A stretch of 64,000 bases of DNA from Balneolaceae bacterium (GTDB lineage: Bacteria > Bacteroidota > Rhodothermia > Balneolales > Balneolaceae): the NCBI GenBank assembly GCA_020832285.1, contig JAFIFB010000120.1:1-64000 (forward strand), read 5' to 3'. Both the position numbers and the translations under genes were made by a program. This document shows, one piece after another, positions 4,036 through 60,310 of the stretch (its first letter is position 1; every line of letters begins with the position of its first letter). The notes beneath the pieces were generated by a model. That model had not been told where the DNA came from. It made no database searches and saw only the letters and a list, made by a program, of their open reading frames with translations.

Positions 4036-4084
4036 ATTTGTCTCTATAGGAAACTTTTTAAATTGTAAATTGAAACTAAACAAA

Positions 4085-4247
4085 ACAACCTGCCAGAGTT
4101 TGAGCGGAGCGAAATCCTGGCAGAGTTATGGTTTGGGGGCTTGGTTGGCTTTATGGAAAGTTTGGGTATCGCCCCGCGACTGCCAGGAGCCCTTGAAAAG
4201 CACAAGGGCACTCTTGTTGCACAGCGATCCCTTTGGTGCAGGTCGCT
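4085..4247 (+). repeat. Long palindromic repeat, copy A
   Basis: First of a family of 145-165-bp elements. It opens AACAACCTGCCAGAG and ends GCAGGTCGCT. Paired parts are outer ACCTGC 4088-4093 with GCAGGT 4238-4243, inner CCTGGCAG 4116-4123 with CTGCCAGG 4180-4187, and hairpin GCCCTTG 4189-4195 with CAAGGGC 4203-4209 around an AAAAGCA loop. This copy has an extra stretch with AGCGA/TCGCT pairing before its end, also found in the copies at 28.4 and 35.7 kb. It lies between the terminator and mutA. The remaining spacer up to 4448 shows no gene. Confidence 0.85.
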
Positions 4248-6428: not shown

Positions 6429-8560
6429 CAAGGCCTGATTTTTCAAAAATAGAATTCAACCCGAAAATAGATACGCTGCCAGATCAAAAGAGTGAAAGGG
6501 AGTGGATAACCCCGGAAAAAATTCCGATAAAATCACGGTTCAGTGCTGACGATGCCGAGCATCTATACCATCTCGGTTTTGGAGCGGGGGTGCCGCCATA
6601 TCTCCGAGGCCCGTACGCCACGATGTACACACAGCGTCCGTGGACCATCAGGCAGTATGCAGGATTTTCCACAGCTGAAGAATCGAATGCGTTTTATCGC
6701 AGAAATCTGACTGCAGGACAGAGAGGCCTCTCAGTGGCCTTTGATCTTGCTACTCACCGGGGCTACGATTCCGATCACCCCCGTGTAACCGGTGATGTTG
6801 GCAAAGCGGGTGTGGCCATTGATTCCATCCTGGACATGAAAATCCTGTTTGACCAGATTCCTCTCGATCAGATGTCGGTTTCCATGACGATGAACGGCGC
6901 GGTAATTCCGGTTATGGCATTTTACATCGTAACTGCCGAGGAGCAGGGTGTATCTCCAGAAAAGCTAAGCGGTACCATCCAGAACGATATCCTCAAAGAG
7001 TTCATGGTGCGAAACACCTACATCTATCCGCCGGAGCCGTCGATGCGCATTATCGGTGATATTTTTGAGTATACTTCCAAAAAAATGCCGCGATTCAATT
7101 CTATCAGTGTGAGCGGGTACCATATGCACGAGGCCGGAGCCACCGCAGATCTTGAGCTGGCTTACACACTGGCCGATGGGCTGGAGTATGTACGCAGGGG
7201 CATAAATGCAGGGCTGGATATTGACGATTTTGCACCAAGAATTTCCTTTTTCTGGGCCATCGGGATGAATCATTTTATGGAAATCGCCAAGCTTCGTGCG
7301 GGCAGAATGTTATGGGCAAAGCTGATGAAACAGTTTAACCCGGAAAATCCCAAATCACTATCACTCAGGGCACATAGTCAGACATCGGGCTATAGTCTCA
7401 CAGAGCAGGACCCCTTCAATAATGTAGCGCGAACCTGCATAGAAGCGATGGCCGCGGCCCTGGGGCACACGCAATCCCTTCACACAAATTCACTTGATGA
7501 GGCGATCGCTCTGCCGTCCGATTTTTCAGCGCGAATTGCCCGGAATACACAGCTTATTCTTCAGGAAGAGAGTGGTATCACCCGGGCGATTGACCCCTGG
7601 GCTGGTTCTTACTATGTGGAATATCTCACCGATCAGCTCTCGCGCAGGGCATTGAAGCTGATAGAAGAAGTGGAGGAGCTGGGTGGTATGGCCGAAGCGA
7701 TTGAAACAGGAGTTCCCAAAATGAGGATAGAGGAGGCCGCAGCCCGTAAACAGGCCCGTATCGACAGCGGCAGAGAAGCCATTGTGGGTGTGAATAAATT
7801 CCGGTTGGAAAAAGAAGAGCCATTCGATATTCTTGAAGTGGACAATGAAAAAGTGCGAAAAACCCAGGTGGAACGGATCAACCGGCTAAAAGCGGAACGT
7901 GACTCTGAAGCAGTTGAACAATCACTGAAAGCGATTACCCGCTGTGCAGAAACCGGCAAAGGAAACCTGCTGGAAAAAGCTGTTGAAGCTGCCCGAAACC
8001 GTGCCACACTGGGAGAAATCTCACTGGCAATGGAGAAGGAATTCGGGCGATACCGTGCAACCATCAAATCGATATCCGGTGTGTATTCATCAGAACTTGA
8101 AAATGACGAAACATTTCAAAAAACGCGGAAACTTGCCGATCGTTTCGCAGAACGTGAGGGCAGGCGTCCCCGAATCATGGTGGCCAAAATAGGCCAGGAT
8201 GGGCATGACCGCGGGGCCAAGGTGATCTCAACAAGTTTTGCCGATCTCGGTTTTGATGTGGATATCGGGCCGCTGTTTCAAACCCCTGAAGAAGCCGCCA
8301 AACAGGCTGTAGAAAATGATGTGCATATTTTGGGGATTTCAAGCCTTGCAGCCGGGCACAAAACACTGGTGCCTGCTGTCATTGAAGAATTAAAAAATTT
8401 GGGGCGGAATGATATTATGGTAATTGTTGGCGGCGTGATTCCCAATAAAGATTATCCGTTTCTTTACGATAAAGGCGTGGCCGCAATATTTGGCCCCGGG
8501 ACTGTGATCGCCAATGCTGCGCAAAATATTCTGAACATTTTACTGGAAAGTGGCGATTAA
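6425..8560 (+). CDS. mutB: Methylmalonyl-CoA mutase, large (alpha) subunit
   Basis: A 711-residue catalytic subunit of typical family length. The substrate-binding TIM barrel covers about residues 40-550 ([31 protein letters not shown]), and the C-terminal Rossmann-like cobalamin domain begins near 580. The base-off cobalamin ligand His594 lies in the D-G-H-D-R-G motif (592-597), and V-I-V-G-G-V-I-P is also present. The start ATG at 6425 overlaps the mutA stop (ATGA) and is preceded by GGAGG, a clear ribosome binding site that is uncommon in this window. Reaction and cofactor follow directly from the family. Confidence 0.97.
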
Positions 8561-26473: not shown

Positions 26474-26510
26474 AATCTTTTTTGATTGATGGCTTATCCC
26501 TTTGAAATAA

Positions 26511-26646
26511 ACAACCTGACAGCACCTGCTGGATCTGTCAGAGTTGTGTACCAGGTAATTACCTTGATGCTGATAAAAGGCCGAAAAGGCTCAGAGGGAT
26601 CGGGACCAGAAAAACACTGGCCCCGAGGGCATGCTGTCAGGTCGCT
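26511..26646 (+). repeat. Diverged palindromic repeat, copy B
   Basis: It opens AACAACCTGACAG and ends TGTCAGGTCGCT, like the other family copies, but its interior has diverged. The outer stem is perfect over 10 bp with different bases from the other copies: CCTGACAGCA 26515-26524 with TGCTGTCAGG 26632-26641. Behind it, 26690-26740 resembles 60,200-60,250 (both contain CCATCATTTGT in a shared stretch of about 45 bp). The rest of the 305-bp spacer shows no gene. Confidence 0.6.
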
Positions 26647-35646: not shown

Positions 35647-35747
35647 ATAGAATGATGAAATTCTGTTTTAATGGATTTTCTATTTGGACTGAAATTACGA
35701 AAATTCTGGTGAAATTTGTGTCGCAGCTTACACATTTCGCTACTATA

Positions 35748-35904
35748 ACAACCTGCCAGAGTTTGAGCGGATCGAAATCCTGGCAGGTTGTGGTTTTGGG
35801 GTACGATAGGCTTTAAGTAGATTTTGGGTATGGCCCCGCGACTGCCGGGAGCCGGAATAACATCGGGCACTCTTGCCGCACAGCGATCCCTTGGGCAGGT
35901 CGCT
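35748..35904 (+). repeat. Long palindromic repeat, copy D
   Basis: It begins AACCTGCCAGAGTTTGAGCGG and ends GGGCAGGTCGCT. The inner stem CCTGGCAG pairs imperfectly with CTGCCGGG, and the small hairpin is degraded. It shares the extended tail (GCACAGCGATCCC) with copies A and C. It fills much of the 523-bp spacer between kbl and the giant surface-protein gene; the remainder shows no gene. Confidence 0.82.
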
Positions 35905-36079
35905 TTAACCTTTAATTGTCTCCAACTTTGAACCACTATCCTAAACATCGCAGAAAGCTGGAAAAAGAGTAAGATAAATTCATGATTTTTAATTTCGATA
36001 AACCATTGATGCTAAAGCATATATTCTAAATAGATTTAGAGCGCTACTCATTAATTTTTCTTTTCTTAAAGTAATGTGT

Positions 36080-36087
36080 TATGTTTG
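36080..36087 (+). promoter_or_regulatory. Candidate Bacteroidota-type -7 box
   Basis: TATGTTTG matches the TAnnTTTG -7 consensus of Bacteroidota primary sigma factors and lies 82 bp upstream of the giant protein's ATG. The corresponding -33 region is T-rich but has no exact TTTG, so this is tentative. Confidence 0.3.
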
Positions 36088-36169
36088 CAGCTGCTTTTTT
36101 TGGGGTCAAAAAGAACCAAATAGTACAGACTAAAAGTATCAAATCTGCAACTTTTCTAACCTGATTTAA

Positions 36170-39100
36170 ATGATGCGCTCTTATCTGAAGTACCTTTTGT
36201 CTACACTCACCATCCTGTTATTATCCGGCCAATTCATGACGGCCATAGCCCAGACAGATATCGAGTCTTGGGAAGACCTGGCGAATATGAGCCTGAGTGG
36301 TAACTACATTCTAACAGAAGATCTTGATAGCTCCACTCCGGGTTACAACGATTATGCTGGCCCAAACGCTAATAGCGGAAGCGGCTGGGAGCCGATTGGT
36401 GATACAGACAATCCATTTACCGGAACACTGGATGGTGGAGACAACAGTATTTCAGGACTTCGAATTAACCGCGGAACTGAAGAGTTTGTGGGCCTTTTCT
36501 CTGCAATAGATGGGGCAACGATTCAAAATCTCACGATCGATGATGCAGAAGTAAACGCCGACGGAGGTAATGAGCAGGTAGCAAATGTATCAATTCTGGC
36601 CGGCCAGGGGCTAAATTTTACCATCGAGAATTTTACATTGAATGGAAAAATTACGGCAACTACTGATTTTATAAGTGGTAATGATCGGATAGCTGTGAGC
36701 CAAATAGGCGGCCTTGTAGCTTTTGTTCCTGATGTTGTAGATAATGAAGTTACCATCAGCCAACTAAACTTTGATGTCGATGTTGAAGTGACGGTGAATC
36801 GCGATGGTGCTGATATTGATGAGTTTGATGCTGTTTCTATCGGGGGGCTTGTAGGAAAAACAGGAGAAAATCGCAGTGATTATACAAATGTCTGGACAAT
36901 CGAAGATATTGAAGCAACCGGTTCATTTAATTTGGATGTAGATGGACGGTCAGAATTCCTGTCATTACTGTTCGCTGATGCGATTAGTTCTACTGGTGAA
37001 TGGAATCTAAGCAATATTAATGTTGATCAACCTCGGATGGAAGTTAATGGTAATGGTCCAACAGATCTTGGCATATTTGGTGGGCGGCTACAAAATTCAA
37101 ACTTAAATAATCTAACTATTACAGATGGGAGTTTGATTGTTAACTCATTAGAAGATGGCGGCGGAAGTGTTCGGCGTATCAGGCGGGCTGCTTTAGGTGT
37201 TGGCCGTTCTGGTTCAAGCTGGGAAATAGAAAATTCCGGGGTAATCGGTAATGTGACGATAAATGGAGATAATAGTGTTAGTTCGGTAGGGTTGTTTTTT
37301 GGGAGAACAAGCAGAGAATATATCATAACTGATTCCTGGGCAGAGGGTAACATAAATATAACCGCGGGCAGAGATGCTGATGAAGTTGGCCTTTTTCTTG
37401 GATCCAGACAAAATGCGAATGACTGGGAAGTAACCGATTCACATGCTGAGGGAAATATAACTATATCAGCAGGTAGAAATGTTGATGAAACCGGTATTTT
37501 TGCAGGTAGTGCCGGTAGGGGTTGGAATCTTACAAACTCCTGGGCTAAAGGCAACATTAATATTACAGCCGGGCTGGATCCGGATAATTCCTCCGGTGAT
37601 GTGGAAGGTATTGCAATTTTTGTGGGAGAGTCAGATAGTGGATGGAATGTAACCGATTCCTGGGCAGAGGGAGATATTATTATAGAAAATCTGCATCGTG
37701 ATGTAGAAGAGATAGCTATTTTCACCGGTACCACCGAGAGTGATTGGGTTGTTACAAACTCTTATGCCAGGGGAGATATCACAATAGATACTGTTCGCGA
37801 TGTTGAAGATGTAGCTATTTTTGCAGGTAAAGCGGTTGGAAACTGGAAAGTCGAAAATTCAGAAGCTGAAGGTGATCTGCTAATAACCACTTCAGAGGGT
37901 GACGTAGATGAGGTTGCAATTTTTACCGGTGATGCAGGCATTGATTGGGAAATCATAAATTCCCATGCAAAAGGAGATGTTACGATCAACGCCGGAGGTG
38001 AAGTAAGTGAAGTGGCTGTGTTTATGGGTAATTCAAACAGCAGATGGGATATAACCGATTCAAGTGCAGAAGGTGATATAGATATCACTGCAGGTACTCA
38101 CTCATCGGGTAGAGTAGATGATATAGGCATATTTGCAGGAAATCCCGGAGGCACCTATAACTTCAATAATTCTACTGCAAGGGGAAATATTAAAATAACA
38201 AATCCCGGGGATGTAAGAGAGGTTGGCATATTTGTTGGAGATTCCAGTTTAGATTGGAGTGTTATTGACTCAAATGCTGAGGGTGATATTACTATTGAAA
38301 GTACTGGGGGAGATGTATACGAAATTGGTGTATTTGTCGGTGACCAGTCACGAAACTCAACTTTTACGAATACCTATGCTAAAGGGAATATTGACATTAC
38401 TGCAGACCAGGATATATATATGATTGGTGTCTATTTTGGAATCATGTCAACCGGATTGACTATAAAAAATTCTTATGCAATGGGTGATATTACAGCAAAC
38501 GCCGGTAATGAACTATTTTGGATTGGCTCATTCATTGGCTTAAGCTCTCCGTCTTTTAATATTGATACAAATATATCCAACGTATTTTCTTCAGGTGACA
38601 TCACGGTAAAAACATCTGATGAAAATGCAGATTTTAATAGTATAGGCGGGTTTATTGGGTATATAGGAGATTATGGAGATGAATCTATCACTATAGAAGA
38701 TGTTTACTCCTATGGAGATATAGCTGCTGATGGTGCCAGCTCTGTAGGTGGACTCGTTGGTACAATTCTTGGTAGCAGTGCAACAATTTCTAACACCTAT
38801 GCTGCCGGAGAAGTGATTGGTAATGCCGACACAGCAGGTCTTATTGGTTTACAAGAAGGTGCTAATACTATAGAGAACTCCTTTTTTGACAAAATCTTGA
38901 ATCCTGGCATGCCGGATGAAGCAGACTTCGGAAAAACCACCCAAGAGATGAAAGCATCGGATATCTTTACCACAGCAGGCTGGGATTTTACCGATACCTG
39001 GACTACTGCATCATCAGAATTCTCCAAATATATTTCGTATCCCTACCTGCAGGAGATTAACTACGACGAACCGGGAGCCGAGCCGGGAGTAAATCCCATA

Positions 39101-42100
39101 CCCGGCTTGGAATTATTGTACGCTGGTGGCGAAGGCACCGATGAAGTTCCCTATGAAATCGAAACCTGGGAACACCTCGATAACGTACGCCTGAACCTCG
39201 ATGCTAATTTCATTCTTGTGAACGATCTAAGTTCTTCAGATGATGATTACGATGATTTTGCATCCGATCAAGCCGATGGAGGCAACGGCTGGGTGCCCAT
39301 CGGCACAAATTCTGATCGATTCACAGGAACTTTTGACGGAGACGGGCATGAGATCGAAGGATTGTACATTAGCAGATCCAGTGTTTCTGAGCAGGGCCTT
39401 TTTGGTAGAATCCACACGGCTACGATATCAGATCTACATCTCATAAACGCTGAAGTCAGAGGCAATACGAGAAGCGGTGGGCTTGTTGGCTTTGCCACCT
39501 CAAGCAGTACCATTCAGGGTAGTTCTGCGGATGTGGATATAAGCGGCCCTGCCTATATCGGTGGTTTGGTGGGCCAGGCGGAGAATTCAGATATCATTGA
39601 TTCTTATACGTCCGGTTCGCTCTCAGGTCCAGGAACTAACTGGGTAGGTCAAAGCGGCGGCCTTGTCGGTATGCTGTTGAGTAACAGTACTATCATAAAT
39701 TCCTACAGCTCTGTCAATGCGACACGGGCCGGTACACGGGTAGGTGGATTGGTCGGGCAAATGGATGATTCCGAGATATTTGATTCCTATGCCACGGGAG
39801 ACATTAACGGGCAAGGGCCATGGAATGAATTGGCTGGTTTCGTCGGTGTTATCTTTGGGAACAGCCTGATTCAAAATTCCTACAGTTCCGGATCGTATTC
39901 AGATGACAGAATCGCCGGATTTGCCGGTAACATTGAGGATGACAGCGAAATCAGATCCTCATTCTGGAATGAAAGTGTTCAGGATGAGGGTACGACAGAG
40001 GAGGGAGTGGGGGAGAATACATCGTCAGGAACCGTTGAGGTAAACGGACTCACAGATTCTGAGATGCAGAATATATTCACCTTCTATGATGCAGGATGGG
40101 ATTTTATCGGCGAAACGGCCAATGGCACGAATGATATCTGGAAATGGAATCCGAATGATAATTCGGGTTATCCTTTTCTGAATTGGCAGGATGGCACCAA
40201 CGTCATTCCACCGCTTCTGATAAGTCTGACTCCTGAAGATGAAGCCGGCGGTGTTGCTGTTGATACAGAAATCAGCGTTACATTCAGTCTTGATATCGAA
40301 ATTGAAGATACCGGTAAAATTGACCTTAGGGATGATCAAGGCAATCCCGTCGCTATTTCGGCAACCACCGAAGATGAAAAATTAATTATCACTTCGGATG
40401 CTGGTGATCTGGAAAACGACATGAAATATACCGTCGCTATTGAAACCGGTGCTGTGACGACAATTGATGAAGCAGCCAACCGGCACATCGAATGGAGCTT
40501 CACAACGACAATGGCAGCACCGGTAGCCGACAATCAGCGTCTGCTGGTCAGCAACGCCACTGCTTTTGTATTCAGTGGAACAGACTTTGGTGTGTCTGAT
40601 GCAAACTACTCGATTAAGATCGAATCGGTCCCTGATAAAGGCACCCTGAGTGCTGAAGCTGATGATGTGCTGAGTATTATCGATATCAATGCCGATCAAT
40701 TAACCTGGGAACCCCCGGCCGATGAACACGGCTACGGGTTTACTACCTTTGAGTTTATCGTTGTCGATGAGTATGGCCAGGAAAGCGAAGAAACCTACAC
40801 CATGACCCTCGACCTGGCGGCTACCTCGGTAGAGCTGACCGCCGGCAAAGGCTGGCGCTTTTTAACCAGTTCCTCGGTTGGAGACACCTTTGAGGATTTC
40901 CTGGAACCAATCTATGTGCAAGGTGTGCCCGGCTCGAATAACCCCGGCGCGCAGGAAACCAGCCTGTACATCCTCAATCAGGAGGATTATCAGTGGGAGC
41001 TGCCCGATGGGATGGGTGAGGAGATTACACGCGGCAACGGATTTATCGTCTTCGGTTTTGAGGACGATATGCCGTCCACGCTGAGCTCCGGCGAGAACTG
41101 GGCACCGCTTGAGGATGTTTTTGAGTATGAAGGCCTGTTTTTTGATCCCGATCAGGGAGAGTTTGGTGAGAGCCACTTTTTGATTGCCAATCCGCACCCG
41201 ATCAGCCTGGACTTCTGCGCTTTTGATGAATCCAGCGTGGCCGATTACATCCAGATCTGGGACCCTTCGCACAACGATGGGGACTACCGCACACTGAGCT
41301 GCTCGAATGGTGAAGCTGAGATTGCCCCATTTCAGGCCTTTTGGATCCGCACGCTGGACGAGCAGGGTGATCCATCACTGTCCATTCCCGAGCAGGCCTA
41401 CCTGAGCGTTCCGGCCGATGAGCAGTTCAATAGATTCAAAGACATTGCGAATTCAGAAAATTCCCCCCTAAAAAGGGGGGACGAAAAGGGGGTGTCCGTA
41501 CTGGCACTTAGCGTTGAAGGCGAGTCCACGGACGATCCATTTACCAACACCACCCGCATATTATTCCACAATGAGGGCACCGAAGGGATGGACCGTTTTG
41601 ATGCGCCCAGGCTGAGCCCGCAGGGGCTGACAGAAAGATGGCTGAGCTTTTATGTGCTGGACGAGCAGGAAAGAGGCTATGCCCTGAGAAGTCTGCCGCA
41701 GCAGATTGATGAGCAGTTGACCATTCCCCTTGCAGTAGAAACCACGCAGCCGGGCGCCTACACCCTGAGGTGGGCCCTGCCCGAGGCCTCGCACTTCTCC
41801 GGCAGCTACTACTTGCGGGATACTCGTACAGGAGATCTCACCGAGCTCAACGAAGGCCAAAGCTACCGCTTTGAAATAGAGGAATCCCAAGCCGCCAAGG
41901 TTAATAACTCCACCCTAAAAAGGGGGGACGCAAGGGGGGTGTTTAGTGCCCGGGCACATGAACATGAATCCACCCCGCGCTTCGAACTCATCCTCTCCAC
42001 AGAACGACTCGAGGATAGTGATAATCGTCCCAATAGCATCACCCTGGCCCAAAACTACCCCAACCCGTTTAACCCAACCACTCAGATTACCTACGAACTG

Positions 42101-42295
42101 CCCCAAACCGAACAGGTGCGACTGGAGGTCTACGATATGACCGGACGACAGTTAGCCACACTGGTAGACGGGCAGGTATCGGCGGGTTCACATACAGTAA
42201 CCTTCGATGCACAAAATCTTGCCAGCGGGGTCTACATCTACCGACTGCAGGCCGGCGGACAACTTCTGACGAGGCAATTAACATTAATTAAATAG
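36170..42295 (+). CDS. Giant secreted repeat protein with GLUG repeats and T9SS sorting domain
   Basis: The 2,041-residue protein has a signal peptide (about 1-28, A-I-A-Q). A block of GLUG-like repeats follows. About 370-880 is a run of 41-43-residue units of the form W-x-V-T-D-S-x-A-E-G-D-I-x-I, then E-I-A-I-F-x-G. A second classical GLUG block (about 985-1300, G-G-L-V-G), an SbsA/Big-5 Ig-like domain (about 1350-1440) and a cadherin-like segment (1450-1545) come next. A Balneolaceae-style linker precedes a type IX secretion C-terminal domain (about 1955-2041: Y-P-N-P-F-N-P-T-T, G-V-Y-I-Y-R-L). It should be exported by T9SS and anchored or released at the surface, plausibly as an adhesin. 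Two short palindromic repeats are inserted in frame. The repeat block is more AT-rich than the C-terminal third. Confidence 0.92.
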   Translation: MMRSYLKYLLSTLTILLLSGQFMTAIAQTDIESWEDLANMSLSGNYILTEDLDSSTPGYNDYAGPNANSGSGWEPIGDTDNPFTGTLDGGDNSISGLRINRGTEEFVGLFSAIDGATIQNLTIDDAEVNADGGNEQVANVSILAGQGLNFTIENFTLNGKITATTDFISGNDRIAVSQIGGLVAFVPDVVDNEVTISQLNFDVDVEVTVNRDGADIDEFDAVSIGGLVGKTGENRSDYTNVWTIEDIEATGSFNLDVDGRSEFLSLLFADAISSTGEWNLSNINVDQPRMEVNGNGPTDLGIFGGRLQNSNLNNLTITDGSLIVNSLEDGGGSVRRIRRAALGVGRSGSSWEIENSGVIGNVTINGDNSVSSVGLFFGRTSREYIITDSWAEGNINITAGRDADEVGLFLGSRQNANDWEVTDSHAEGNITISAGRNVDETGIFAGSAGRGWNLTNSWAKGNINITAGLDPDNSSGDVEGIAIFVGESDSGWNVTDSWAEGDIIIENLHRDVEEIAIFTGTTESDWVVTNSYARGDITIDTVRDVEDVAIFAGKAVGNWKVENSEAEGDLLITTSEGDVDEVAIFTGDAGIDWEIINSHAKGDVTINAGGEVSEVAVFMGNSNSRWDITDSSAEGDIDITAGTHSSGRVDDIGIFAGNPGGTYNFNNSTARGNIKITNPGDVREVGIFVGDSSLDWSVIDSNAEGDITIESTGGDVYEIGVFVGDQSRNSTFTNTYAKGNIDITADQDIYMIGVYFGIMSTGLTIKNSYAMGDITANAGNELFWIGSFIGLSSPSFNIDTNISNVFSSGDITVKTSDENADFNSIGGFIGYIGDYGDESITIEDVYSYGDIAADGASSVGGLVGTILGSSATISNTYAAGEVIGNADTAGLIGLQEGANTIENSFFDKILNPGMPDEADFGKTTQEMKASDIFTTAGWDFTDTWTTASSEFSKYISYPYLQEINYDEPGAEPGVNPIPGLELLYAGGEGTDEVPYEIETWEHLDNVRLNLDANFILVNDLSSSDDDYDDFASDQADGGNGWVPIGTNSDRFTGTFDGDGHEIEGLYISRSSVSEQGLFGRIHTATISDLHLINAEVRGNTRSGGLVGFATSSSTIQGSSADVDISGPAYIGGLVGQAENSDIIDSYTSGSLSGPGTNWVGQSGGLVGMLLSNSTIINSYSSVNATRAGTRVGGLVGQMDDSEIFDSYATGDINGQGPWNELAGFVGVIFGNSLIQNSYSSGSYSDDRIAGFAGNIEDDSEIRSSFWNESVQDEGTTEEGVGENTSSGTVEVNGLTDSEMQNIFTFYDAGWDFIGETANGTNDIWKWNPNDNSGYPFLNWQDGTNVIPPLLISLTPEDEAGGVAVDTEISVTFSLDIEIEDTGKIDLRDDQGNPVAISATTEDEKLIITSDAGDLENDMKYTVAIETGAVTTIDEAANRHIEWSFTTTMAAPVADNQRLLVSNATAFVFSGTDFGVSDANYSIKIESVPDKGTLSAEADDVLSIIDINADQLTWEPPADEHGYGFTTFEFIVVDEYGQESEETYTMTLDLAATSVELTAGKGWRFLTSSSVGDTFEDFLEPIYVQGVPGSNNPGAQETSLYILNQEDYQWELPDGMGEEITRGNGFIVFGFEDDMPSTLSSGENWAPLEDVFEYEGLFFDPDQGEFGESHFLIANPHPISLDFCAFDESSVADYIQIWDPSHNDGDYRTLSCSNGEAEIAPFQAFWIRTLDEQGDPSLSIPEQAYLSVPADEQFNRFKDIANSENSPLKRGDEKGVSVLALSVEGESTDDPFTNTTRILFHNEGTEGMDRFDAPRLSPQGLTERWLSFYVLDEQERGYALRSLPQQIDEQLTIPLAVETTQPGAYTLRWALPEASHFSGSYYLRDTRTGDLTELNEGQSYRFEIEESQAAKVNNSTLKRGDARGVFSARAHEHESTPRFELILSTERLEDSDNRPNSITLAQNYPNPFNPTTQITYELPQTEQVRLEVYDMTGRQLATLVDGQVSAGSHTVTFDAQNLASGVYIYRLQAGGQLLTRQLTLIK
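41461..41494 (+). repeat. In-frame palindromic mini-repeat, copy 1
   Basis: TCCCCCCTAAAAAGGGGGGA is a near-perfect palindrome followed by CGAAAAGGGGGTGTC. It lies inside the giant gene and is translated as N-S-P-L-K-R-G-D-E-K-G-V, unlike the surrounding acidic sequence. A second copy is at 41,908. Confidence 0.8.
41908..41942 (+). repeat. In-frame palindromic mini-repeat, copy 2
   Basis: CTCCACCCTAAAAAGGGGGG followed by ACGCAAGGGGGGTGTT repeats copy 1 in the same orientation and the same reading frame, translated N-S-T-L-K-R-G-D-A-R-G-V. It sits between the linker and the T9SS sorting domain. Confidence 0.8.
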
Positions 42296-42306
42296 ATAAC
42301 AGTAGG

Positions 42307-42375
42307 GAGTATTGAGTATCGAGTATCGAGATAAATTCTCACTACTCAATACTTGCTACTCACTACTCAATACTC
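42307..42375. repeat. Hairpin of GAGTATTGAGTA repeats after the giant gene
   Basis: GAGTATTGAGTA (42307-42318) is exactly complementary to TACTCAATACTC (42364-42375), and shorter GAGTATCGAG and CTACTCA repeats lie between. It starts 11 bp after the stop of the giant gene and could end its transcript, although no T-tract follows. Confidence 0.6.
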
Positions 42376-42381
42376 AAAACC

Positions 42382-42492
42382 ATGAAAAAAAGACAGAACA
42401 AAACCGATTGGCAGACGCCAAAAATTACAGAACTAGAGATAGCAGCAGCGACGCGTCAATTGCCGGTACCGGACGAGCCGCAGCGGTCGTAG
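42382..42492 (+). CDS. 36-residue peptide with RiPP-leader-like motif
   Basis: A short open frame, ATG 42382 to TAG 42490, encodes M-K-K-R-Q-N-K then D-W-Q-T-P-K-I-T-E-L-E-I-A-A-A-T-R and a Pro-rich tail L-P-V-P-D-E-P-Q-R-S. The stretch W-x2-P-x-I-x2-L resembles the Y-x2-P-x-L-x2-L leader motif of lasso-type and related ribosomal peptide precursors. Similar small peptides of unknown role occur in Bacteroidota. It follows the hairpin behind the giant gene. No peptidase, cyclase or transporter for such a peptide is nearby, and no ribosome site is visible, so it may be untranslated or an orphan. Confidence 0.4.
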   Translation: MKKRQNKTDWQTPKITELEIAAATRQLPVPDEPQRS

Positions 42493-42539
42493 CGGGGAAA
42501 ATGGCATAAAAACAAAAAACCTGCCAGGCCGCTTTGTTA

Positions 42540-42682
42540 AACAACCTGGCAGAGTACGCAGCGGAGCGGAGTTCCTGCAAGAGTTGTGGTTTGGGGGCAC
42601 GGTTGGCTTTAATGTGATATTGGCAGTGCCTCGCGACTCTTGCAGGAGCCCGGAAAAGCACCGGGCACTCTGCCAGGTCGCT
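42540..42682 (+). repeat. Long palindromic repeat, copy E, 3' of RAYT
   Basis: All stems are perfect. The outer stem is CCTGGCAGAGT 42545-42555 with ACTCTGCCAGG 42667-42677. The inner stem is CCTGCAAGAGT 42574-42584 with ACTCTTGCAGG 42636-42646. The hairpin is GCCCGG 42648-42653 with CCGGGC 42661-42666 around AAAAGCA. It ends 6 bp from the transposase stop codon. A partial end (ACCTGCCAGGCCGCTT) stands just before it at about 42,519-42,534. Confidence 0.88.
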
Positions 42683-42688
42683 TGGTAT

Positions 42689-43330
42689 TTACTCTAAATA
42701 ATATTCTTCACCGAGCATTAGCTTAAATTCCTGGTGTGCTTCTATAAAATTCTCCCTGCCACCTAACTGTGTTAACACCTTTTCTTTCTCTAAGAAGGGA
42801 TATTCTTTATTAATTGAATGGATATAGGAGTGGTATGATGAGTATGGATAATCTGAATAGTTGTCCGTAATTCCATGATGAATTGGATTGCGATGGATAT
42901 AGCAAACAAGATGGGTGAAATGATTTTCATCCTTGATTCTTTTTCGTTTAAACGCTCCCGCTACCAGTGTTCCGGATCTCATCATTTTCGGATTGATCGA
43001 TTTTGTGAAACTATTCATCAAATGTGAAAATTGTTTGGAAGCCTGGTACGGTTTTGTGGAGTTAAAATGATCTCCGTAAAAGGAACCTTCAGGATAATTA
43101 TTTTTGATCTGTTGAAAATGTCTCACCTGCTCATCCTGACTTCTCACCCGTATCAATAAGTGATAGTGATTTCTCAACAGGCACTAAGCATATGTTTCTA
43201 CAGGGGTGAATAGGTAGTAAAAATATTTTTTGATAAATAATTGATAATCATTTTCAGACAAAAAAATATCAGCTTTACCCGCCCCGCGATTATAAATATG
43301 GTAGAAATTTCCCTCCTCAAGTGGTTCCAT
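42689..43330 (-). pseudogene. RAYT-type (REP-associated tyrosine) transposase, nonsense-broken
   Basis: The frame from ATG 43330 (M-E-P-L-E-E-G-N-F-Y-H-I-Y-N-R-G) continues to 42,689 except for one in-frame TAG at 43186-43184. The stop falls in V-E-T-Y-A-stop-C-L-L-R-N-H-Y-H-L-L. Relatives have Tyr there, so a single base change from TAC or TAT explains it. The HUH motif is N-H-Y-H-L-L, and the likely catalytic tyrosine lies in V-C-Y-I-H-R-N-P. Total length would be about 213 residues, normal for IS200-like Y1/RAYT proteins. It is bracketed by palindromic repeats E on one side and F and G on the other, as RAYTs are by REP/BIME sequences. Restart at a TTG after the stop would lack the N-terminal part. 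Confidence 0.88.
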
Positions 43331-43405
43331 CTCTTTTTTTACTTTAGATTTTTCTCGATTTAAAAAAGTAGTTTCTTGAAAGAATATTATCAAGGCCTGG
43401 AATAG

Positions 43406-43550
43406 ACAACCTGCCAGAGTACGAAGCAGAGCGGAGATCCTGGCAGAGTTGTGGTTTTAGGGTAAGGTTAGCTTTAAGGCGCTCATGGGCATTGCCTCGC
43501 GACTCTGCCAGGAACCCTTGAAAAGCACAAGGGTACTCTTGCAGGTCGCT
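43406..43550 (+). repeat. Long palindromic repeat, copy F, 5' of RAYT
   Basis: The outer stem CCTGCCAGAGT 43410-43420 pairs with ACTCTTGCAGG 43535-43545 with one mismatch. The inner stem CCTGGCAGAGT 43439-43449 pairs perfectly with ACTCTGCCAGG 43502-43512. The hairpin is ACCCTTG 43514-43520 with CAAGGGT 43528-43534. Stem bases differ from copies E and G yet still pair. It is in tandem with copy G, 6 bp away. Confidence 0.87.
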
Positions 43551-43556
43551 GTGTAA

Positions 43557-43700
43557 ACAACCTGGCAGAGTACGAAGGCGAAGCGGAGTTCCTGCAAGAG
43601 TTGTGGTGTTGGGGTATGGTTGGCTGTAAGGCGACTTTAGACATTGCCTCGCGACTCTTGCAGGAGCCCGGAAAAGCACCGGGCACTCTGCCAGGTAGCT
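43557..43700 (+). repeat. Long palindromic repeat, copy G, tandem with F
   Basis: Perfect outer stem CCTGGCAGAGT 43561-43571 with ACTCTGCCAGG 43685-43695, inner stem CCTGCAAGAGT 43591-43601 with ACTCTTGCAGG 43654-43664, and hairpin GCCCGG 43666-43671 with CCGGGC 43679-43684. It is nearly identical in its stems to copy E on the far side of the transposase. Confidence 0.88.
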
Positions 43701-59512: not shown

Positions 59513-60310
59513 ATTGATTTTGTGTCAATTCTAACTATAGGGATAATGGGCGCTTTAAGCGCCTAAAAAAGAAATTCTACAGGAATTGTTGTTGGTAGTT
59601 ATTTTTGAGATAATTGAAATCTCCTCCCCGAGGGGTTAGGATTTCGAAATCCTCTTTCAACTTGAGGGGAAAAGTTAGTCAAAAACACGATTTGTCGTGA
59701 TTTATTGATTGATGATGGGTGCTTTTGCTCAGCCCTGTAAGTGGGACATCCCGATTCCTTCAAAGAATTTTTCGGGGTAGGTGATCTTGCGCAAAACGTA
59801 AGAGCTCGATTGTTTTGTTGAATGAAACCCATTTTTAAATGAAATTTGTCATCCAAATTATGGCGCGAAAAAAAAGATAAAAAAAGTGCCATCCGGCACG
59901 AGGTATGTTGTAACCCGGTGATTCATCACCGGGATTTGCACTATAAGGAAAAGTAACCATCGGAATCATTCTTGCGAAAGCAGCTGCACAGAATCCGATG
60001 GTTGATCCACAAAACCTCATCAACGCCACTCTTTGATCCCAATCATGCCGGCTTTATCTGAAATTGGCAGCCTGACCCTGTGGTTCGTACCTATCAGCCG
60101 GTGGGCAGACACCTTTGGCGCGGTACTTTCACATTCGGGGCTGCCCTGTTCCCGGCGATGCCCCACCAGGGATCGCTATGCGGAATCACCGGGCTACTAT
60201 ATTTGCCGTGCTTTCAGCACTCTATCCGGCCTTTCCAATCACCATCATTTGTTTTACAATGATTTCAAAAAATTGTGACATTTGCAGTAGTCAGATGTTT
60301 TATTAACAAT
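59513..60310. repeat. Non-coding hairpin-rich repeat region 1
   Basis: No gene is seen. Strong palindromes follow one another: AGGATTTCGAAATCCT (59638-59653); GTGCC/GGCAC (59886-59899); CCCGGTGAT 59914-59922 with ATCACCGGG 59925-59933; and AACCATCGGA 59955-59964 with TCCGATGGTT 59994-60003. Further pairs include GGTGGGCA with TGCCCCACC around 60,097-60,167. The end at about 60,200-60,250 resembles 26,690-26,740. Short frames encode G-D-E-S-P-G-Y-N and C-R-A-F-S-T-L-S-G-L strings, which I associate with dispersed repeats in Bacteroidota; that recollection is unverified. Confidence 0.6.

Follow-up and report, generated by a model that had tools for sequence, protein, structure and literature searches.

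A RAYT gene flanked by oriented copies of a long two-hairpin repeat in a Balneolaceae genome, probably a REPtron

A repeat of about 145 bases stands on both sides of a Y1-type transposase gene in the 64,000-nucleotide stretch of Balneolaceae DNA analysed here (the window; contig C125 of genome G000, 5.33 Mb in 130 contigs), raising the question of what the repeat is and whether it belongs to the enzyme beside it. We consider it very probable that the locus is a REPtron, in which a single-copy RAYT gene has cognate REPIN/BIME copies on both sides, and that the repeat is probably a unit spread by the RAYT protein family. The arrangement itself is of an already known kind, here in a long variant. 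The locus consists of the following features.

42540-42682, plus strand: element copy E, 164 bits with the covariance model, antisense to the RAYT gene
42689-43330, minus strand: RAYT (Y1 HUH endonuclease) frame, 213 codons from the ATG at 43330, with motifs NHYH and YIHRNP and a fold match to 4er8
43405-43550, plus strand: element copy F, 157 bits with the covariance model, antisense to the RAYT gene
43556-43700, plus strand: element copy G, 159 bits with the covariance model, antisense to the RAYT gene and in tandem with F

The end of E lies 6 bp from the RAYT stop codon, F starts 74 bp 5' of the ATG, and a 5-bp gap separates F from G. The first-pass annotation had described the gene as framed by E on its 3' side and by F and G on its 5' side, and we confirm this layout and its spacings. 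It had also counted four further copies in the window, three of which we recovered as A, B and C.

4084-4247, plus strand: element copy A, X insert in arm 4, found with the covariance model
26510-26646, plus strand: weak match outside the A-G family, 21.9 bits, E=8e-4, to be compared with L043 and L046
28448-28616, plus strand: element copy B, X insert in arm 4, found with the covariance model
35747-35904, plus strand: element copy C, X insert in arm 4, left boundary of a 7.9-kb block absent from the relative G052

The fourth claimed copy, at 26510-26646, has arms (CCTGACAGCACC...GGATCTGTCAGAGTTGTG) that resemble the element next to a different RAYT lineage (L043/L099, L046), and we therefore assign it to a sister family. 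The six strong copies (A, B, C, E, F and G; covariance-model E-values of 8e-17 to 1e-40) all lie on the plus strand, in line with the common orientation noted earlier. Counted genome-wide, the element yielded 39 matching pieces by blastn and at least 34 copies by covariance model R2, the latter figure being a minimum, as the model scored exactly 34 candidates; model R1 was discarded for its poor automatic structure. Nearly all checked copies (22/23; 6/6 in the window and 16/17 elsewhere) are intergenic, meaning outside open reading frames of at least 150 aa, in a window with an ORF density of 82%. Outside two genera, the covariance model found almost no element matches, and an Rfam search of the window returned zero matches, so that the element corresponds to no known RNA family.

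In order, the element comprises arm 1, a linker, arm 2, a spacer, arm 3, a small hairpin and arm 4, and spans 143-146 bp in E, F and G. Arms 1 and 2 read CCTGNNAGAGT, and arms 3 and 4 read ACTCTNNCAGG. Hairpin 1 (ACAAC-CTGnCAG...CTGnCAG-A-GTTGT) carries an asymmetric bulge and is followed by a partly conserved spacer; hairpin 2, also asymmetrically bulged, runs from GCGAC-T-CTGnCAG through a small GC hairpin with loop GAAAAGCAC to CTGnCAG-GTCGC. The small hairpin varies by compensation between copies (GCCCGG...CCGGGC versus CCCTTG...CAAGGG). The canonical 5' GT[AG]G foot is missing from the feet, which are AACAAC, GCGAC and AGCGAC, and GTGG is confined to the 3' foot of hairpin 1.

Because a single sequence, in variant forms, makes up all four arms, two folds are open to the unit: separate tandem hairpins with feet ACAAC/GTTGT and GCGAC/GTCGC, or one nested structure in which arm 1 pairs with arm 4 and arm 2 with arm 3. 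Folding with DNA parameters favours the nested form in E, F and G, with plus-strand z-scores of -6.9, -4.1 and -6.0, respectively, and zero shuffles folding as well. Among the G000 elements, pair counts exceed shuffled controls for both folds, and the comparison within the genome is thus not decisive. Over 12 representative elements, 157 of 168 core positions are paired in the two-hairpin fold and 150 of 168 in the nested fold. For this count, arms were chosen by eye; the search recovered their strings in order at all loci but L043, whose spacer probably exceeds the permitted length. In E, G and L042, the nested fold pairs perfectly. Its long stems, which the first-pass annotation had proposed, pair above shuffles within the genome, but they did not hold as the sole structure, being broken in L043, L046, L047 and L054. 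Since the two-hairpin fold is perfect in these four, the unit is, judging from its sequence, best read as a REPIN/BIME, with two imperfect REP hairpins and a structured spacer, and not as one giant REP. Known REP dimers also pair end to end (PMC3733652). The unit of about 145 bp is thus real, but its description as much larger than classical REPs had set a dimer against a monomer.

Many copies of the family contain hairpin inserts of 21-25 nt, overlooked in the earlier reading. The X insert, about 20-25 nt long, is made of two adjacent mini-hairpins (e.g. CGC-ATA-GCG-AT-CCC-n-GGG) and its insertion point is CTCTTG^CAGG, in either arm 3 or arm 4 of its carriers (A, B and C; L012, L017, L018, L021, L028-L030, L033 and L037). 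Variants with other stem sequences are present in the REPs of other RAYT families (L040, L043, L049), within arms or loops, and in a subset, X-like inserts numbered 13 in real and 1 in shuffled sequences. On a speculative reading, to which we attach a low probability, the insert of about 22 nt (NNN-nnn-N'N'N'-AT-CCC-n-GGG) would be a separate parasite of REP hairpins that holds one set position in arms or loops across several REP families of the genus that are unrelated to one another, its stems being kept by compensatory change; if true, a second single-strand-processing system, or RAYT itself, would put tiny hairpins into REP stems. A different insert, Y (23 nt, about TCGCAGATnCCGATACTTCGGTG), is always found in arm 2 at AAG^AGTT (L029, L030, L033, L037). 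At 60150-60190 of the window, outside ORFs of at least 150 aa, there is also an X-like double mini-hairpin, here in the loop of a GCCCGG palindrome that is unrelated.

The RAYT frame, too, holds a feature that the first-pass annotation had missed, an in-frame TAG at 43186-43184 (codon 49). This stop lies just upstream of the HUH motif NHYH, so the window RAYT is probably a pseudogene. Close relatives have an aromatic residue at this position, which is W in L041 and L042, whose RAYT frames are open. As nothing else in the frame is broken, we read the window gene as probably a recent pseudogene, barring a sequencing error. The stop at codon 49 concerns the activity of this copy and not the origin of the family.

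In the window frame, the catalytic-Tyr motif YIHRNP follows downstream of NHYH. Alignments of 24 and 27 relatives show no variation in either His, in the Tyr or in the Asn that follows it, and HxH and YIHxNP are preserved among RAYT relatives. What the clade lacks in the alignment is the W/Q region, through which GTAG is read in E. coli (PMC6006769). Pfam Y1_Tnp gave no match to the clade, NCBIfam REP_Tyr_transpos (NF047646) matched L041 with E=2.4e-14 and 53 bits, below the curated cut-off of 80 bits, and the RAYT-REP hairpin complex PDB 4er8 is a weak sequence match. An AlphaFold (AF2) model built from the window protein, with the TAG read as W, plus relatives reached a pLDDT of 89, and 4er8 was its sole PDB fold match below E 0.001 (E=3.6e-8, TM 0.52/0.66). 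The other RAYTs in G000 are 34-36% identical to the window RAYT, which is therefore single-copy and does not multiply as an IS would. Arrays of a further REP family (CGTCAGTCCAG...CTGGACAGACGAG) stand on the flanks of one of the different RAYTs (L040, G000:C83:2533-3006), and G000 contains seven more Y1/IS200-like matches (PF01797; L001-L007), several of them truncated.

We sought RAYT relatives across 92 genomes of the family; the named relatives in the clade are Balneolaceae MAGs and Rhodohalobacter species. Homologous elements, likewise antisense to the gene, flank the nearest intact RAYTs, L041 (72%) and L042 (62%), on both sides. Most other close RAYTs have their own oriented direct repeats (L043, L044, L046, L047, L049-L056 and L058); none were seen flanking L045 and L057. 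In a tree of 61 RAYTs, the window sequence falls within a set of 16 rows (SH-aLRT 99), 14 of which have oriented direct repeats of at least 50 bp, and among the other 45 rows, 26 have short simple palindromes and 13 none detected. Shared repeats flank most Bacteroidota RAYT relatives and were found at 0/110 random window positions. Across the flanks of 16 RAYTs, element similarity follows protein identity (Mantel rho 0.62, p=0.0005). The link between RAYT and element proposed by the first-pass annotation is thereby borne out, and on these sequence comparisons the association is specific. Palindromes of other kinds do flank distant RAYTs, as co-divergence predicts, while the close ones have related elements. 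Averages within the genus also favour genomes with a close RAYT (8.1 covariance-model matches per genome with a close RAYT and 1.9 without; one-sided Mann-Whitney p=0.017, a comparison that ignores phylogeny and assembly quality and serves as supporting evidence only); copies occur without a cognate RAYT in G052 (6 copies, assembly 86% complete) and G055 (8 copies, 93% complete).

For G052, a close relative with 92-94% identical DNA, the RAYT block is missing at its site, which accounts for copies without the gene through loss or because it was never gained. Comparison with contig C129 of this genome defines two further features of the window.

35775-43660, no strand: block absent at the orthologous G052 site, where one degraded element joins both flanks
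36170-42295, plus strand: gene for a 2041-aa GLUG/Big_5/Por_Secre_tail secreted protein, cargo of the block missing in G052

The left flank of G052 reaches window position 35774, inside C, and the right flank resumes at 43661, inside G. The site therefore lacks the 2041-aa gene, E, the RAYT gene, F and most of G, a block of 7.9 kb from C to G, and no copy of the window RAYT was found elsewhere in the G052 assembly. At the junction stands a single degraded element with an X insert and a further insert of about 230 bp. The latter (L230, G052:C129, ~7230-7470) is MITE-like, has matching ends CCGCATTTCTCAC/GTGAGAAATGCGG and lies inside the X insert. The absence of the block together with the single junction element suggests that element copies act as recombination points, and recombination between the direct copies C and G would explain the indel, whether as a deletion in G052 or as an addition in G000. 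Elsewhere, comparison of L010 (G000:C69:55842) with L251 (G052:C83) shows wholly different gene content on the left, with the break at the element edge. Together these sites suggest that copies mark places of nearby gene gain or loss. None of the A, B, L010 and L014 sites proved cleanly empty of its element in G052: those of A and L014 hold degraded elements, that of B falls in a contig gap and that of L010 at the gene-content break. The neighbours of the block differ in G055, and its flanks are on separate contigs in G056.

These observations are consistent with a model in which RAYT would recognise the hairpins in single-stranded DNA, for example on the lagging-strand template, and would cleave and rejoin them through its HUH/Tyr site. 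The unit would thereby be spread between genes, and the remaining direct copies could serve as sites of homologous recombination. With the stop preceding the HUH motif, the element family is probably no longer mobilised by the window RAYT protein.

Could the repeats instead serve the host, as terminators, mRNA-stability hairpins or gyrase/nucleoid sites, with the RAYT gene beside them by chance or by insertion? Their strong folding and almost wholly intergenic placement would suit such roles, as would the persistence of copies where RAYT is missing. However, co-divergence with RAYT speaks against host function, as do copies on both sides and in one orientation at independent RAYT loci and a high but patchy copy number in step with the presence of RAYT, and we regard this explanation as quite unlikely. 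Somewhat less so, but still unlikely, is a composite transposon, in which the moving unit would be either the entire C-G block or RAYT together with the direct copies beside it. Direct copies do bound both the gene and the 7.9-kb block, and G052 has one element where G000 has the block and its elements; yet a deletion between direct repeats explains G052 equally, a second RAYT-element unit was not seen, and the RAYT gene is single-copy, given the low identity of the other RAYTs in G000.

Long imperfect hairpins in one orientation also recall the attC-like sites of an integron-type system, in which single-strand hairpins are read by an integrase. Here the copies stand kilobases apart between unrelated genes, direct reading of the sequence revealed no core pair of the form RYYYAAC/GTTRRRY where one would be expected, and the association is with a Y1 HUH protein. 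We rejected this identity on layout and motif and consider it extremely improbable. A REPtron remains our preferred reading of the locus.

The structures flanking Bacteroidetes RAYTs have previously been called 'atypical' and were spotted by manual inspection. Our study provides a concrete layout for one Balneolaceae RAYT clade, an oriented two-hairpin unit that co-diverges with the enzyme. The hairpins so defined may serve as substrates for understanding REP recognition where the enzyme lacks the W/Q guide-reading motif and the REP lacks GTAG. In addition, the block missing from G052 suggests that such repeats shape gene content as recombination points, even with the transposase dead or absent.

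REPtrons, BIMEs, REPINs, the pairing of one RAYT with each REP family and their co-divergence are established (PMC2817692, PMC3116915, PMC6006769). Among the described classes, the window RAYT is probably of the type of subclass 2.6 TnpA_REP (Bertels group 5), whose description it fits although its motifs differ from those listed. Subclass 2.6 genes, from Bacteroidetes, are flanked by 'atypical secondary structures' without GT[AG]G (PMC6006769); both groups are Bacteroidota RAYTs with such structures and further copies across the genome, and the W94/Q95 guide-recognition region is not conserved in either. In contrast to the motifs listed for subclass 2.6 (NH[LIV]H, WQ and YIH[QN]NP; PMC6006769), the window clade has NH[FY]H and YIHRNP and no WQ, and it is flanked by a long, oriented unit, as direct repeats that mostly measure 57-219 bp. 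TIRtrons with their TIRYT genes (PMC3733652) likewise place a RAYT-like gene between long repeats other than GTAG REPs, but those are terminal inverted repeats, whereas the window gene is flanked by direct repeats, every unit of which contains palindromes of its own. The E. coli TnpA_REP (yafM) REPtron with its Y/Z2 BIMEs and the Pseudomonas REPINs also have a single-copy RAYT between two-hairpin dimers, bulged stems and units dispersed between genes, and the best fold match, 4er8, points the same way. Compared with these, the window unit has no 5' GTAG foot, is longer, flanks its gene in direct orientation, and carries an extra small hairpin inside the second REP as well as inserts in its arms.
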